From the NCBI GenBank assembly GCA_023144005.1, contig JAGLGN010000005.1, positions 62,001-126,000 on the forward strand: a stretch of 64,000 nucleotides of DNA, written 5' to 3'. A program made the position numbers and the translations under genes. The notes under the pieces were generated by a model. It was not told the origin of the DNA, made no database searches, and saw only the letters and a list, made by a program, of their open reading frames with translations. Below are positions 399 through 8,523 of this stretch, piece by piece (position 1 is the first letter of the stretch; each line of letters opens with the position of its first letter). The DNA is from a bacterium (GTDB lineage Bacteria > AUK180).

Positions 399-1760
399 TT
401 AAATATGGATTTTTGATGTTTGTTCCGGATCCGTCCCCAGTGCAGCGGCCCGTTTCAGAAGCGCGCGGCCGGCAGGTGCGGTTTCCTTATTCTTTATGTA
501 AACATTTCCCAACGCCCTTAAGATATACCCCATTTCGTTTCTAATATCATTTTCTTCTGCAAGTTTCAGTGCCTTTTCGAATTTGATCGCCGCTTCAGCT
601 GGGTTTTCCTCTGCAAGATGCTCCCCCATCTTATAAAGCGCAAGGTATTGCAATCTTGGCAGAGCGACCTCATTTGCCAGTCTAAGGGCCTTGGAAATCG
701 TTTTATCTCTATCTATATATTTGCCGATGAGGTGGTAATAATCGGAAAGATGGCGTAATACTTCATTGAGATGTCGATGATCCTTCATCGTGCTGAACAA
801 AGACCGGGCTTCTTCTAAATACGGCAACACTCTATCATAATCTGCCATCTCCACATAAGTGCTGGCAAAATTGATCAGATTGATACCGATCATTCTGAGG
901 AATTTGCGTTTTCTCGCTATCTTGAGACTTTTTGCAAATAATGACAGTCCCTTCTCATATTCCTTTGTTTTCGCATAGACATTTCCCATATTCATATAAG
1001 CATTCCCTATCCCTTTCTGGTCGTCAAGCTGCAGAACTATTTCAAGGTATTTCTCAAAATAGTGAAGGGATTTCTTTAAATCTCCCCGTGCCGCGTTCAT
1101 TCCACCCAGGTCATTATAAACCCCTGCGATCCCATGAGTATAAGAAGTCTGTTTCGCGATCTCCAGAAATTCCAGAAGTTTCTTCTCTGATTCAGCATAT
1201 CTTCCGGTATGATAATATATGATCCCTATGTTTTTTGTTGCCATCCCCAGAACTCTACGATCGTCTATCTTGGCAAAGGATTTCGCCGCTCTGCGGTAAT
1301 AGGTCAAAGCTTTTTCATAAAAACCCTGATGATAGTAAATGGCACCAAGATTATTATTCAATGCACCTTGATAGAATTCATCTCGGATAATTTTATTCAA
1401 CTCCAAGGCCTTAACAAAATAATCAGCCGCCGGCTCATATTCGCCTAAATACATATTGCAGATCCCCATAAGGTTCATTGCGTCAAAACGCAAATCTTCC
1501 TCGCCGGAAGATTCCAATTCGGCAAGAACTTCCTCTACGATCCGTATTACTTCGGGATATTTGTTTCGTTTTCTTTGGATGTGCGCGGACATTAATTTCA
1601 TCTTCTTCCGGTCCCATGGCAGGACGCTGATCTCAAATCCTTTTTTCGCGTCACTCATCGCTAAAGCGTATTTTCCCATAATATTGAGTAGCTCAGCGCG
1701 AAGGCGCAGCGCCAGACAATAGAGTTCTTTGGAATTGCGTTCGGAAGAAGGCTTATCCAT
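399..1760 (-). CDS. TPR protein; C-terminal TPR half of the cyclase, separated by one TGA
   Basis: The 453-residue protein consists almost entirely of tetratricopeptide repeats, about ten units, with typical consensus such as LGAIYYHQGFYEKALTYYRRA and LGNVYIKNKE. There is no signal peptide. Its ATG (1760) lies in the same frame as the cyclase gene upstream: the cyclase stop TGA (1766-1764), one CCT codon, then this ATG. No good ribosome site precedes the ATG; a GAGGAG lies about 24 bases away. In sAC-like proteins of this architecture the TPR array normally continues on the same chain, so this may be made by stop-codon readthrough, by termination-reinitiation, or as a separate subunit. Stand-alone TPR relatives occur at 5873-7279 and at the right edge. 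Confidence 0.85.
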   Translation of the reverse strand: MDKPSSERNSKELYCLALRLRAELLNIMGKYALAMSDAKKGFEISVLPWDRKKMKLMSAHIQRKRNKYPEVIRIVEEVLAELESSGEEDLRFDAMNLMGICNMYLGEYEPAADYFVKALELNKIIRDEFYQGALNNNLGAIYYHQGFYEKALTYYRRAAKSFAKIDDRRVLGMATKNIGIIYYHTGRYAESEKKLLEFLEIAKQTSYTHGIAGVYNDLGGMNAARGDLKKSLHYFEKYLEIVLQLDDQKGIGNAYMNMGNVYAKTKEYEKGLSLFAKSLKIARKRKFLRMIGINLINFASTYVEMADYDRVLPYLEEARSLFSTMKDHRHLNEVLRHLSDYYHLIGKYIDRDKTISKALRLANEVALPRLQYLALYKMGEHLAEENPAEAAIKFEKALKLAEENDIRNEMGYILRALGNVYIKNKETAPAGRALLKRAAALGTDPEQTSKIHI

Positions 1761-1763
1761 AGG

Positions 1764-4475
1764 TCACTGCTGGTCGGTCATCTCCTCATACGACTCGATA
1801 GCACGAGTAAAAAACTGTACTGCTTCTTCATTGGCATAAACGGCTTTCGCCTTTTCACCGGCAAGGACAGAATATAAAAGGCTGCGGTCATAATCCTTGG
1901 CAGAATGAAAATGATAAGACATTATCCCCAGATATTCATCGCGCCTTTTTGAGAATTTATCCTCAATGTAAATCCCCACCTTGGAGTGCAATTCACGGCG
2001 CTTTGCGAAGGAAATGGTCCCATAGGAAACCTCTTGAGTAAAAATATGTTTGAAGATATACTTATTGGATTCGCTTTGCTCCCCCTTGAGAATAATATCA
2101 AGTTTTCCCAGATTGTCAAGGATTTTGCTAAGGTCCATATCAGCCGAATAAAGCCCTGTTAGTATCTCCTCGTCAAATTCCCTTCCAAGTACCGAGGCCG
2201 TTTGTATTACATCCCTCTCCAAGAGGTCCAGTCTATCAATACGCGTAAGAATAACTCCTTCGATCGTATCGGGGATATCAATTTTATTCGCATCTCCGGT
2301 GAACTCCCACTTACCCGGAAGCTTCTCTTTGATGAACCCCTGTTCAACCAGGGACTTAACGATTTCTTCCGCATAAAAGGGATTTCCCTGTGACCGCTTT
2401 ATGATCAATTTCTTGAAGTCACCGGGTAATTTATCGACATTCAGAAGATTACCAACAAGCTCCTCAACGCCTTTATTATCAAGCTCGGCGACCGGTATTT
2501 CAGCATAATTAGAACGCTTTCTGAACTCAAAATCACCTTGCAGTGGCCGGAACACAAGCAAGAGCAATACTCTGTCGGCATCGATATTGGCGGAAACATG
2601 TTCGATCAATTCCATTGACACCGAATCTATCCAGTGAATATCGTCAATAATAATAGTTAACGGGGCTATCTTCGCCTGATCCTTGACCAATCTAAGAACG
2701 ATATCAAAAAATCTTTGTTTTCTTATCTTGGGACCGATATGTTTGGATATTTCATTTTCCGGAAAGTCAATCCCCATAGCTTCTCCAACGATAGGAAGAA
2801 GTTTCACATATTCGGTTCCCAATGCCCTCAAGGCCGTTTGGAGTTTTTTCTTTTTTGCGGCTTTTGTTTCATTCGCCTCAATTTTGAGAAGTGAGTTCAT
2901 TACCGAGATCCAGGGATAATAAGATAGATTTGCTCCATATGAAAGGCAAGCGCCCTCTTTGATCGAGAAATTCAATTTATTCAGGCGCTTCACTACTTCT
3001 TTTGTAAAACGGGATTTACCCATACCGGCCTCACCCGTAATGCCAAGTATCCTTCCTTTTGTGGAAGAAGCGGATTTCAAATTTCTATAGGCCTTGGCCA
3101 ATTCCTTGCCCCTGCCTACGATCTTAGAACTCTCGGAAAGCCACTTTGAAACATTCGCTGCGGAAGTTTCGGCTTTGTCCTGCAATCGAAATATGGGGAT
3201 CCCCTTGGTTTTGCCTTTAAATTTCTTCTCTCCCAAAGCTTTGTATTTAAAGAGCGACGAAGTGGAGTCGAAGATAGCTTTGGAGACTTCTATCATTCCA
3301 TGTGATGCGCCCGATGCCAAACGAGCGGTAAGGTTGACGGTATCGCCCATAACGGTGTACTCGCGTCTGTGATCGGTACCAACAGGAGTAGCGAAAGCAA
3401 ATCCACCATTTATTCCAATAGATACTTCCAGTTTTTCACTTGCCTTTGAATTCTTCAATTCATAGGCCAGCTGAACCGCTCTCTTATTGATATCCTCATG
3501 TGCATTCGGGAAGCCGATGACAAGAAGAATACGGACTGATCTTTCATATATATCGATCTTGTTTAAAAACCCGTCATATTTATTACTTAGATTATCCAGT
3601 GTTTTGTAAAAATCCTTTAGAAGTTTTGAGGATTCTTTGGGTGTATTATCAAAATCAAAGCCCTTGAAGTGAATAAAAAGTACCGCGATATTTCTGTGCT
3701 CTCCATCCTTTGGAGCAAAGAAAGGATTCAGGTCGATACGGCGCTTCAGCCACACTGGAATATATCCTTCCATTTTTCCCCGGATTACAGCATAATCCCC
3801 TGTTTCCGTGACCTTGGTCTTGGCAGGAACGAGGGTCTTTGCTTTCACGAAGGGAGGGCTCAGCAGCCATGTTCCGCGCTGCGGAGAGGTGAACTTTAAC
3901 TCCTTGGCAAATTTTTTGATCGCGGAATTAACAGCAATTTCACCCGCCTTTGCCAGATCAACCATTTTCATAAGGTCGTAAGAGGCTTTGCCGCCGAGAA
4001 AATAATCACTGCCCAGGTCTTGGAAGTAGATATTTCCATGGGTCAGCCCGATGTGCATTCGGATCGGAAATGTACTTTTGCCTATTTTTATCTTGTTCTT
4101 GCCTTTGATAAAGGAAATTGCCTCCATCGAAGCTTTCAATGCATGCTTAACCGAAGAACCCGCCTGCTTCCCATCGGGAAAAAATCCGAAGATCGCATCA
4201 CCGCCGAAACGATATATGTCTCCTCCGTTATCAGCAAATAAATAGATCAATGTCTCGAAATACTCATTAATGATACCGGTCAGAGTTTCTGCACCTTCTC
4301 TCCCTATCTTTGCCAGATCTTCACTCAATTTTGTAAAACCTGAAATGTCCGCGTAGAAAAGGGTTCCCGTAAAAGTAGTATTGCCCTTAACTTTCCCTCC
4401 CTTTTTCAAAGAATTCACAACATACGCAGGAAGAAAACTGCCCACAGTTAGTGTTTTTTGAAGTTCCTTATTCAT
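1764..4475 (-). CDS. soluble adenylyl cyclase-like protein: tandem class III cyclase domains plus AAA-type ATPase
   Basis: The 903-residue cytosolic protein is built like human soluble adenylyl cyclase (ADCY10). C1 (about 36-190) carries both metal aspartates, D43 in FYADISGF and D93 in RFGGDAIFGFF. C2 (about 258-430) has lost them (H269 and R315) but keeps K306, T374, N381 and R385 (YTVMGDTVNLTAR), the substrate and transition-state residues. A pseudo-heterodimeric active site that makes cAMP from ATP is therefore expected. An ATPase module follows, with an entry motif VGRGKEL at about 453, Walker A GEAGMGKS at 481-488 and Walker B IIIDDIHW at about 608-615, then helical repeats. R89 occupies the place of human K95. 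The gene has its own promoter and a GAGGA ribosome site. The chain ends at a TGA directly before, and in frame with, the TPR gene. Confidence 0.9.
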   Translation of the reverse strand: MNKELQKTLTVGSFLPAYVVNSLKKGGKVKGNTTFTGTLFYADISGFTKLSEDLAKIGREGAETLTGIINEYFETLIYLFADNGGDIYRFGGDAIFGFFPDGKQAGSSVKHALKASMEAISFIKGKNKIKIGKSTFPIRMHIGLTHGNIYFQDLGSDYFLGGKASYDLMKMVDLAKAGEIAVNSAIKKFAKELKFTSPQRGTWLLSPPFVKAKTLVPAKTKVTETGDYAVIRGKMEGYIPVWLKRRIDLNPFFAPKDGEHRNIAVLFIHFKGFDFDNTPKESSKLLKDFYKTLDNLSNKYDGFLNKIDIYERSVRILLVIGFPNAHEDINKRAVQLAYELKNSKASEKLEVSIGINGGFAFATPVGTDHRREYTVMGDTVNLTARLASGASHGMIEVSKAIFDSTSSLFKYKALGEKKFKGKTKGIPIFRLQDKAETSAANVSKWLSESSKIVGRGKELAKAYRNLKSASSTKGRILGITGEAGMGKSRFTKEVVKRLNKLNFSIKEGACLSYGANLSYYPWISVMNSLLKIEANETKAAKKKKLQTALRALGTEYVKLLPIVGEAMGIDFPENEISKHIGPKIRKQRFFDIVLRLVKDQAKIAPLTIIIDDIHWIDSVSMELIEHVSANIDADRVLLLLVFRPLQGDFEFRKRSNYAEIPVAELDNKGVEELVGNLLNVDKLPGDFKKLIIKRSQGNPFYAEEIVKSLVEQGFIKEKLPGKWEFTGDANKIDIPDTIEGVILTRIDRLDLLERDVIQTASVLGREFDEEILTGLYSADMDLSKILDNLGKLDIILKGEQSESNKYIFKHIFTQEVSYGTISFAKRRELHSKVGIYIEDKFSKRRDEYLGIMSYHFHSAKDYDRSLLYSVLAGEKAKAVYANEEAVQFFTRAIESYEEMTDQQ

Positions 4476-4508
4476 AAATCCTCACTTTCTTTTGATGCAC
4501 CATTGTTT

Positions 4509-5872: not shown

Positions 5873-7279
5873 TCATTGAGCAGTACCGGAAAGGATCCGT
5901 TTGATCTCTCTGATCCGGAATTTCAAATTTAATTTTGAAAATATATACGTCGCTTCAGAGAAGATTTGCTTTGCGGAATTTTCATCAATAGATAAGGTAG
6001 CCCTGCCGAGGTCGGTCAATATCCTCGCTTCCTCATATTTCATTCCGAACTTATGCGCGATAGCGCGGGCTTTCTGTAGGGTATTTATCCCTCTTTTAAT
6101 ATCATTTCGGCAATATATCCTTCCCAGAATGTGATAGACGGCGTGCTTCTGTTCCACCAATTCTAATTCATCGGCACATTCAAGAGCCTTCTCAGCGGAT
6201 TTCAGAGCATTGGGCTGGTCATCCAGCAAAAAATATGCTCCGGCAGAAGAAATATAAACATCAAATAATGTTAATCTGTCGTTGATATCCGAAAGTATTT
6301 TATGGGCTCTCTTTGCATGGCGCAATGCACTTTTCCCATCCCCCTGATCCAGGCACACATTACATATATTCACAAGAGCAGCTCCCATACCAGCCCTATA
6401 CCCGACTTCCCTCGCTATCTTCAAGTATTTTCTGAATTTTTTGAGGGATTCTTCATACTTTCCCTGATATTGCAGAATAATCCCAATATTATTGGAAGAG
6501 ATGCCAATACCTTTCAAATGATCCATTTCCTCGCACAGATAGAGATACTCACTGTAATATCTCAAAGCTCTTTCTACATTTCCGAAAACAAGATGAACAT
6601 TGCCCAGATTATTGGCATTCATGGCAATGCCACGCTTAAAGTCTATTGCTTTTGCAGAATTGTAACTTCGCGTATAATATTCCAACGCTTTTTTATTTTC
6701 GCTCATATCCTCAAAGATATTTCCCAGATTCATCGAGGCAACGCATTCTGCTCTTTTGTCATTAAGCTTTTCAAAGATCTGAAGACAGCGTTCAAGGTAT
6801 AAAGATGCCTCAGAAAAATGCCCTTGCTCTACCAATATGGTACCTAAATTATTACAGATATTCCCCACTCCCAGGGTATCATTATATTTTTCAAAGATTT
6901 TCAGCGTTGTTTTTAAAGCCTTAACAGCCGCTTTGTAATCATTATCCTGCCAATAAATTATTCCAAGAATATTCTGAGCATTCGCAAAGAGTAATTCATC
7001 CACTTTTGGATCGATCTTCTTCAATACTTCAAGAATTAGCTCTTTTGATTTATTGTGATCATGTTCTACGCGAAGATACATATCGGCAAGATCGATCTGA
7101 ATGGATACCCATTTTTCTTTTTCTTTGCGTAGATCACTCAACTCTTCGGCTCGATTCAAGTCTTTTATGCCTTTTGAATATTTTCCCTGATGATCAAAAA
7201 TCAGGGCTCGATTCTTTAGAGCACGGAATAAGAGGTCATCCCTGTACTTATTATCTAAAAGCCCCATATCGATCGTCAA
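5873..7279 (-). CDS. stand-alone TPR protein related to the cyclase TPR domain
   Basis: The protein has about 468 residues and some ten tetratricopeptide repeats (for example LGTILVEQGHFSEASLYLERCL and GNIFEDMSENKKALEYYTRS), with no signal peptide and no cyclase or ATPase domain. Its layout resembles the TPR half at 399-1760 from the first repeat onward, so the two look like paralogues. It is translationally coupled: a TTG start at 7279 overlaps the TGA of the lipoprotein gene, and ATG 7267 (MGLLDNKY) is an alternative; neither has a clear ribosome site. Such LGN/Rap-like arrays usually bind peptides or partner proteins. A scaffold or signalling role is inference. Confidence 0.85.
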   Translation of the reverse strand: MTIDMGLLDNKYRDDLLFRALKNRALIFDHQGKYSKGIKDLNRAEELSDLRKEKEKWVSIQIDLADMYLRVEHDHNKSKELILEVLKKIDPKVDELLFANAQNILGIIYWQDNDYKAAVKALKTTLKIFEKYNDTLGVGNICNNLGTILVEQGHFSEASLYLERCLQIFEKLNDKRAECVASMNLGNIFEDMSENKKALEYYTRSYNSAKAIDFKRGIAMNANNLGNVHLVFGNVERALRYYSEYLYLCEEMDHLKGIGISSNNIGIILQYQGKYEESLKKFRKYLKIAREVGYRAGMGAALVNICNVCLDQGDGKSALRHAKRAHKILSDINDRLTLFDVYISSAGAYFLLDDQPNALKSAEKALECADELELVEQKHAVYHILGRIYCRNDIKRGINTLQKARAIAHKFGMKYEEARILTDLGRATLSIDENSAKQIFSEATYIFSKLNLKFRIREIKRILSGTAQ

Positions 7280-8172
7280 GGAATAGGCTTGAACTCGGAT
7301 AATTTGATCTTGATCTCACTTACCACTTCATTATCAAAACCCGGATAATATCTTAGCAAGAGAGCGGATTCCGATGGTAACGGCGTAATATCTATTGGGA
7401 TCCTTATCTGTCCGGAAGGGTCGGAATAATAACCGTTTTTGCCGTCCTTCATAGAGATGATCGTAAGAGGGGCAGTACCGAAAATATAGTATTCTCCTCC
7501 GCTGCATACTGTTCTTCCATAATTTGGAATAGTGGATATATCGGGCAATTGAACGCGTTCTTTTAATTCAGACATCGTCTGGGCAAGTCCTTCTCCCAGT
7601 AATTTTATATCTTCCCAGGGAAGGTCGTCGAAGCGGAATTTGCCATCGTCTTTATCCCATTTTCCCGCTTCTGACCTGACAAAGTTCACATTTCCGTTTT
7701 TCTCTTCAAATGAGATCCGGATGATCCTTTCTTCGAACTCGCCAATAAAAAAGGAGTAGAGCTTTGTCTGGCTCTTGGCTATATAAAATCCGTTTCCTTC
7801 GGAGAGAATATCCCACTTTCCCGAAGAGAGGTTCAACCTGATGACATTGCCGGGATAAGCCTTGTTATGAAAAATGATATTCTGCCCTACAACGACCTGC
7901 GCGTCAAAGAATTGAAACCAATCTTTCATATTCGCGGCAGCGGGAGGATTTTCGGTCAATAACTCCGCTTTTGAAGCTCCCTTTTCTATCTTCCATATTT
8001 CGGGAGCATAGAAGCAATTTACCACATACATCATACCGTCCCGCTCGAAATACGCTTGAGAACGACTCACTAATATTTCGATGGGATCAGGTATCGGCGC
8101 GACATTGCCGCAAGATAAAAGGAGAACAACCGTAAGAAGAAACAGACAGAGTGAAATAAGCCTCGTTTTCAT
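7276..8172 (-). CDS. predicted lipoprotein of unknown function
   Basis: The frame is open much further upstream, but the start is placed at ATG 8172: GAGGA lies just before it, a TTGACA/TAGAAT promoter lies at 8198-8226, and the N-terminus MKTRLISLCLFLL...LLSCGN is a lipoprotein signal with the lipobox Cys at about residue 22. The mature part (about 275 residues) has short beta-rich segments such as RSQAYFERDGMMYVV and KLYSFFIGEFEERII, reminiscent of a WD/propeller-like or WG-repeat periplasmic protein, but I recognise no family. It heads the operon with the TPR and EEP genes. The extra upstream 117 codons are intergenic repeat sequence read by chance. Confidence 0.75.
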   Translation of the reverse strand: MKTRLISLCLFLLTVVLLLSCGNVAPIPDPIEILVSRSQAYFERDGMMYVVNCFYAPEIWKIEKGASKAELLTENPPAAANMKDWFQFFDAQVVVGQNIIFHNKAYPGNVIRLNLSSGKWDILSEGNGFYIAKSQTKLYSFFIGEFEERIIRISFEEKNGNVNFVRSEAGKWDKDDGKFRFDDLPWEDIKLLGEGLAQTMSELKERVQLPDISTIPNYGRTVCSGGEYYIFGTAPLTIISMKDGKNGYYSDPSGQIRIPIDITPLPSESALLLRYYPGFDNEVVSEIKIKLSEFKPIP

Positions 8173-8197
8173 AAATTCCTCACTAGTGATCTGATTC

Positions 8198-8226
8198 ATT
8201 CTACCAATTACAGAGGCACATGTCAA
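8198..8226 (-). promoter_or_regulatory. promoter of the lipoprotein-TPR-EEP operon
   Basis: On the minus strand a consensus TTGACA (8221-8226) and TAGAAT (8198-8203) are 17 bp apart. The predicted RNA start near 8191 gives an 18-base leader with GAGGA. This supports the short start of the lipoprotein. Confidence 0.7.
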
Positions 8227-8523
8227 AAAGAAGTACGAGGTACTAGGTCTATAGAGACATGAACAATTAACACGCTCCGCAGAGGTTGGAGGCTTGAGGT
8301 TAGAGGTTAGCGCAGAGGGGAATAAATACAATTGGTGATTATAACGAAGGAAACGAAATAACGATTTTCCGGCTACGGATATGGATATTGGTTTCGTTTT
8401 CACCTCGTACATCGCACCCCGACTGGTACTGTTTTTATCACCTCTGACCTTATATTTGTTATTTCTCAACGTGCAACCTTGAACTTTTGAACCTTTGAAC
8501 GCTTCGGCACCGCGAAGCATCAC
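8227..8523 (-). repeat. intergenic spacer with dispersed repeat words
   Basis: No gene is credible here. The spacer holds a GCTTCG...CGAAGC hairpin just after the queA stop (8503-8520), a TTGAAC-type word cluster (8479-8500) also found at 22882-22902, and a 38-base segment (8354-8391, beginning CGAAATAA and containing TTTTCCGG) that recurs with mainly transition differences at 48282-48319. The same kinds of words fill the spacers at 22.9 kb and 48.2 kb. Confidence 0.6.

Follow-up and report, generated by a model that had tools for sequence, protein, structure and literature searches.

The window, as we call the whole stretch of 64,000 nucleotides that was analysed, belongs to a bacterial genome of 2.67 Mb in 38 contigs. 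Near its beginning, two genes on the minus strand encode a class III cyclase resembling the soluble adenylyl cyclase (sAC) and a TPR protein (Table 1).

Table 1. Features of the cyclase-TPR locus (positions in the window)
Feature	Position	Strand	Evidence or remark
TPR protein, 453 aa	399..1760	-	Pfam TPR repeats; alignment to G087/G297
CCT codon and TPR start ATG	1758..1763	-	Same frame, 3 nt past the stop
TGA stop of the cyclase	1764..1766	-	Context TGAC; identical in G001
sAC-like class III cyclase, 903 aa, stop TGA	1764..4475	-	Pfam; alignment to human sAC
GAGGAG, sole SD-like motif near the TPR start	1782..1787	-	Ends 21 nt before the ATG, farther away than normal
GAGGA ribosome-binding site of the cyclase ATG	4479..4483	-	dG -7.2 kcal/mol

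The cyclase comprises a C1 domain (about residues 35-180), a C2 domain (about 257-434) and an AAA_16/STAND-type ATPase (452-638), followed by a C-terminal helical part that finishes in half a TPR. Pfam recognised Guanylate_cyc in two stretches and AAA_16 at residues 452-638 (E = 1.2e-19), and the best solved match is the human soluble adenylyl cyclase (ADCY10, PDB 4clf; E = 4e-23). The residues D43, D93, N381 and R385 are aligned with D47, D99, N412 and R416 of human sAC, whose C1 contributes the metal aspartates and whose C2 the Asn/Arg pair; its adenine-site Lys95 is aligned to Arg89 here. The window cyclase thus matches human sAC in its C1-C2 pair, with a single set of metal aspartates and this division of the catalytic residues, and in the NTPase that follows, but its TPR region is a gene of its own. 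Because all the aligned catalytic residues are present, the 903-aa product looks, on its face, catalytically complete without the TPR protein.

On the minus strand, the junction between the two genes reads GAG GAG ATG ACC GAC CAG CAG TGA CCT ATG GAT AAG, with the stop at 1766..1764, the CCT codon at 1763..1761 and the TPR ATG at 1760..1758. The sequence-only reading had placed TGA, CCT and ATG in a single frame and had seen no ribosome site within normal reach of the TPR ATG, and both points are borne out. The TPR frame is open upstream as far as the cyclase TGA, which keeps the C-terminal TPR region out of the cyclase chain, and within the normal distance of the TPR ATG the SD duplex reaches -1.2 kcal/mol at best, against -7.2 kcal/mol at the cyclase ATG. 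The stop-to-start distance is +3 nt on one strand, and this gap leaves no intergenic room for a promoter before the TPR gene.

In a genome of the same genus (G001; contig C97, JAGLWT010000039.1), the junction is letter-for-letter identical (TGACCTATG), so that the intervening TGA and the +3 nt spacing are found there too. A scan of genome contigs gave a single true ortholog, the remaining matches being distant ATPases. Between the window and G001, dS is 0.20 for the cyclase and 0.35 for the TPR gene, and dN is 0.012 and 0.074, respectively; the two parts therefore evolve at different rates.

We also looked at how common such junctions are in a 464 kb sample of the window's own genome, in which 284-298 genes were called by codon usage. 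This sample contains 25 contiguous in-frame gene pairs and 162 close gene pairs, 24 of which (15%) have no SD, i.e. nothing better than -3 kcal/mol, and 10 of its 115 TGA stops are TGAC. Close spacing of genes is thus the norm in this genome. Taken singly, neither the shared frame, nor the missing SD, nor the TGAC context is rare in this genome.

Then, we compared the locus with three further genera of the family (G002, G003 and G004) and two more genomes of the class (G005 and G006). The cyclases of G002 (51% identity) and G003 (45%) stop at the same domain joint, with TAA and TAG, respectively, and in both the TPR then follows in the -1 frame. In G004 (45%) and in G005 and G006 (34-38%), the cyclase also stops at the joint, with no TPR behind it. 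In the phylum of G272, an ortholog was present in 9 out of 10 genomes, and none of the nine had a TPR behind it (for G307, this covers about 140 nt beyond the stop). These unfused orthologs end at nearly the same residue as the window cyclase but, unlike it, are not followed by a TPR ORF. In a third phylum (G087 and G297; 39%), cyclase and TPR are joined in one chain. The sequence-only reading had looked to a conserved TGA in relatives: G001 does have it, but G002 and G003 differ in both codon and frame. A sense codon at this place was found in no close relative, as every family member seen stops at the joint. What is conserved in the family is therefore the position of the stop at the joint, neither the TGA nor the frame.

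Fused forms are also frequent within the window's own genome. The paralogs there are mostly fused, with open frames of 1113-1457 aa, and only one other, of 865 aa, is unfused. The fused paralogs and the G087/G297 proteins have the same domains in the same order as here, and G087 aligns across the joint, but in these cyclase-AAA-TPR proteins the joint contains no stop, unlike in the window pair. The sequence-only reading, according to which cyclase, ATPase and TPR usually form one chain, thus holds for most paralogs in this genome, but unfused relatives are common as well. The class III cyclase domain family has 27 matches in this genome (G000), a striking number of such sensors for 2.67 Mb, and many of them sit in cyclase-ATPase-TPR proteins of more than 1100 aa.

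A tree of 35 cyclases unites the genera of the family with G087/G297 in a single clade (SH-aLRT 100), with G002 as the sister group of the window's genus (97); the deeper branch order is not resolved. As the fused form of G087/G297 lies within the same clade as split forms, we regard the joint between cyclase and TPR as labile, opening and closing in evolution. The nesting of this fused ortholog of another phylum (L111 = G087:C5 and L116 = G297:C267) inside the clade of the window's family also suggests a transfer of the cyclase between phyla.

The position of the break was examined by alignment to the fused orthologs. The first repeat of the 453-aa TPR protein corresponds to the one with which the chain runs on in G087/G297, and in the alignment to G087 the break falls between two repeats (FTRAIESYEEM before it, ...LALRLRAELLNIMGKYALAMSDA after it). 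Because the break is set between repeats, the TPR protein could extend the cyclase's repeat stack in trans. In an AlphaFold prediction from a single sequence, with the C-terminal half of the cyclase joined to the TPR protein and the TGA read as W, pLDDT was below 50 up to residue 338 and the joint was unreadable.

The window junction is best explained by an ordinary, tightly packed gene pair, either separated or not yet joined between two repeats, rather than by programmed readthrough. We consider it likely that the two genes form an operon for a split sAC-like cyclase, in which the TPR protein is made by termination-reinitiation and probably bound in trans. The first gene would give the cyclase-ATPase with all aligned catalytic residues, and the second a protein of its own, the C-terminal TPR superhelix. 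After terminating at the TGA, some ribosomes would restart at the ATG 3 nt further on, which would tie the amount of TPR subunit to that of the cyclase. This subunit would then probably bind the C-terminal half repeat left behind the ATPase, with a putative role in sensing. Stop-start spacings of -8 to +10 nt are taken as a predictor of termination-reinitiation, which is almost lost at about 20 nt (PMC10666635). The window pair resembles known coupled pairs in this spacing, in lying on one strand and in encoding probable subunits, but those pairs mostly overlap by 4 or 1 nt, whereas here the spacing is +3 nt without an SD (PMC10666635, PMC6728339). The SD is often important for reinitiation, although not always required: in E. 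coli, its removal decreased reinitiation by 60-90% in three out of five pairs and eliminated it in another (PMC6728339). Because the SD is missing at the TPR ATG, the output of TPR protein could be low. Of the interpretations offered by the sequence-only reading, the coupling of two subunits by reinitiation thus survives.

A loose end concerns the joints of G002 and G003, where a slippery heptamer, GAAAAAA, directly precedes the stop (GAAAAAA-TAR). Both G_AAA_AAA and AAA_AAA_T are listed among the consensus frameshift heptamers (PMC3711429). In G002, the earliest possible start of the TPR, a TTG, lies 10 nt beyond the stop and has no SD. The G003 TPR runs for some 50 codons without any ATG, GTG or TTG, although it already shows the repeats and a coding-like codon usage from near the stop onwards, which counts against plain reinitiation at a standard start in that genome. 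These features could be explained by recoding as a family trait: -1 slippage on GAAAAAA-TAR in G002 and G003 and, in the window's genus, readthrough of the stop would yield short and long cyclases throughout. However, among gene ends with AAAAAA before the stop and the next gene open across it, AAAAAATGA was found in 9 out of 16 cases in the G003 sample and in all three in the window's own genome. This AAAAAATGA is an ATGA-type start-stop overlap, the usual coupled junction in these genomes; GAAAAAATAA/TAG may therefore be the same coupled junction with ATA replacing ATG as the start. The presence of ATA proves nothing by itself, since ATA occurs at the overlap in 26 of the 215 G003 pairs whose -1 frame is open. 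Moreover, a run of six A is short for transcriptional slippage, the structure z scores at the G002 and G003 joints (-0.8 and -1.0) give no sign of a 3' structure beyond chance, and a family trait would require two different mechanisms. We thus find a recoding trait of the whole family unlikely, and rate the prospect of real recoding at the G002 and G003 joints as low. These two joints fit an ATA start, a -1 slippage or, mainly for G003, an assembly error. Such an error is possible in G003 because a few other genes there also lack a start, one of which, at a ten-A run, appears to be frame-broken.

Two of these G003 genes can be described. A mobA-like gene (L100:9596-9640, G003:C10) lacks ATG, GTG and TTG, and ATA AGT TAC GCC GTA stands where its start is expected (M S Y A V LTGGKSS). 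It may be initiated at ATA or contain a wrong base, and an apparent second ATA start is a further point against recoding in the family. In a patatin-like gene (G003:C11, assembled from L101 and L127-L136, offset about 194124, minus strand), the ten-A run parts an ATG GGT CTT TTT start from the body and breaks the frame; this may reflect transcriptional slippage or a homopolymer error. In addition, a second TPR gene (L053:8956-10374) follows the first in G003. As it is closer to the TPR of the window (26% identity vs. 22% for the first), either of them could be the ortholog.

An independent, uncoupled start of the TPR gene at its own weak site is improbable as well. The gene does have its own ATG, and starts without SD occur in this genome, but no SD is present at the normal distance and the 3-nt gap has no room for a promoter.

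That some ribosomes read through the TGAC, giving a full-length cyclase-ATPase-TPR protein beside the short cyclase, is very unlikely. This proposal of the sequence-only reading agrees with the shared frame of TGA, CCT and ATG in both species of the genus, the intact frame past the stop, the TPR start without SD and the existence of the fused orthologs in G087/G297. However, the stop codon and the frame vary in the two nearest genera that carry the TPR (G002 and G003), so that the TGA with its in-frame extension is conserved in the window's genus only, whereas a readthrough gene would be expected to keep both across relatives. TGAC is an ordinary context in this genome and the junction is one of many contiguous in-frame pairs. 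The run of 16 identical codons around the stop between the window and G001 is unexceptional, and there is no sign of a special signal there because longer runs are common elsewhere in the cyclase gene; no unusual synonymous conservation that would betray recoding was found near the stop in this comparison. No stimulatory RNA structure above shuffles was detected at any of the four junctions (z = -0.8 and -0.4 for the window's genus). Insertion of selenocysteine at the TGA was rejected: no tRNA-Sec was recognised, the sole match above the cut-off being a tRNA-Ser according to ARAGORN. The -1 frame with TAA or TAG in the relatives, the ordinary TGAC and the lack of unusual synonymous conservation, of structure beyond chance and of a recognised tRNA-Sec thus leave readthrough unsupported.

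Finally, a recent nonsense mutation or a sequencing error in a fused gene, the dull alternative of the sequence-only reading, would suit the mostly fused paralogs of the genome but is ruled out because a second species, in a separate assembly, has the identical stop and start despite many differing sites, and every other family member seen also stops at the joint.

Should the two genes indeed encode a split enzyme whose parts are made in a coupled way, the ATPase-cyclase and the repeat domain are separate subunits, and assays of the catalytic core with and without its presumed sensor become feasible, which is less simple in a fused sAC-like enzyme. If, on the other hand, recoding were a family trait after all, each cell would hold a short and a full-length, TPR-bearing cyclase, comparable to the alternative splicing of mammalian sAC. 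The window junction does not speak for a new decoding mechanism. The finding is a modest one and concerns the lability of a domain joint in sAC-like cyclases; with a single joint found fused, interrupted in frame, interrupted with a change to the -1 frame or without its TPR, it offers a compact case of gene fission and fusion. In the literature, we found nothing on point about split bacterial sAC-like cyclases or about readthrough in such cyclases.

A second stand-alone TPR gene of the window (5873..7279, minus strand) has 25% identity to the cyclase-associated one. It lies behind a lipoprotein-like gene (7276..8523, minus strand) with a 4-nt TTGA overlap. This pair was considered as a second split cyclase and rejected, the upstream gene being lipoprotein-like and no cyclase. 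Its neighbours are the same in G001.
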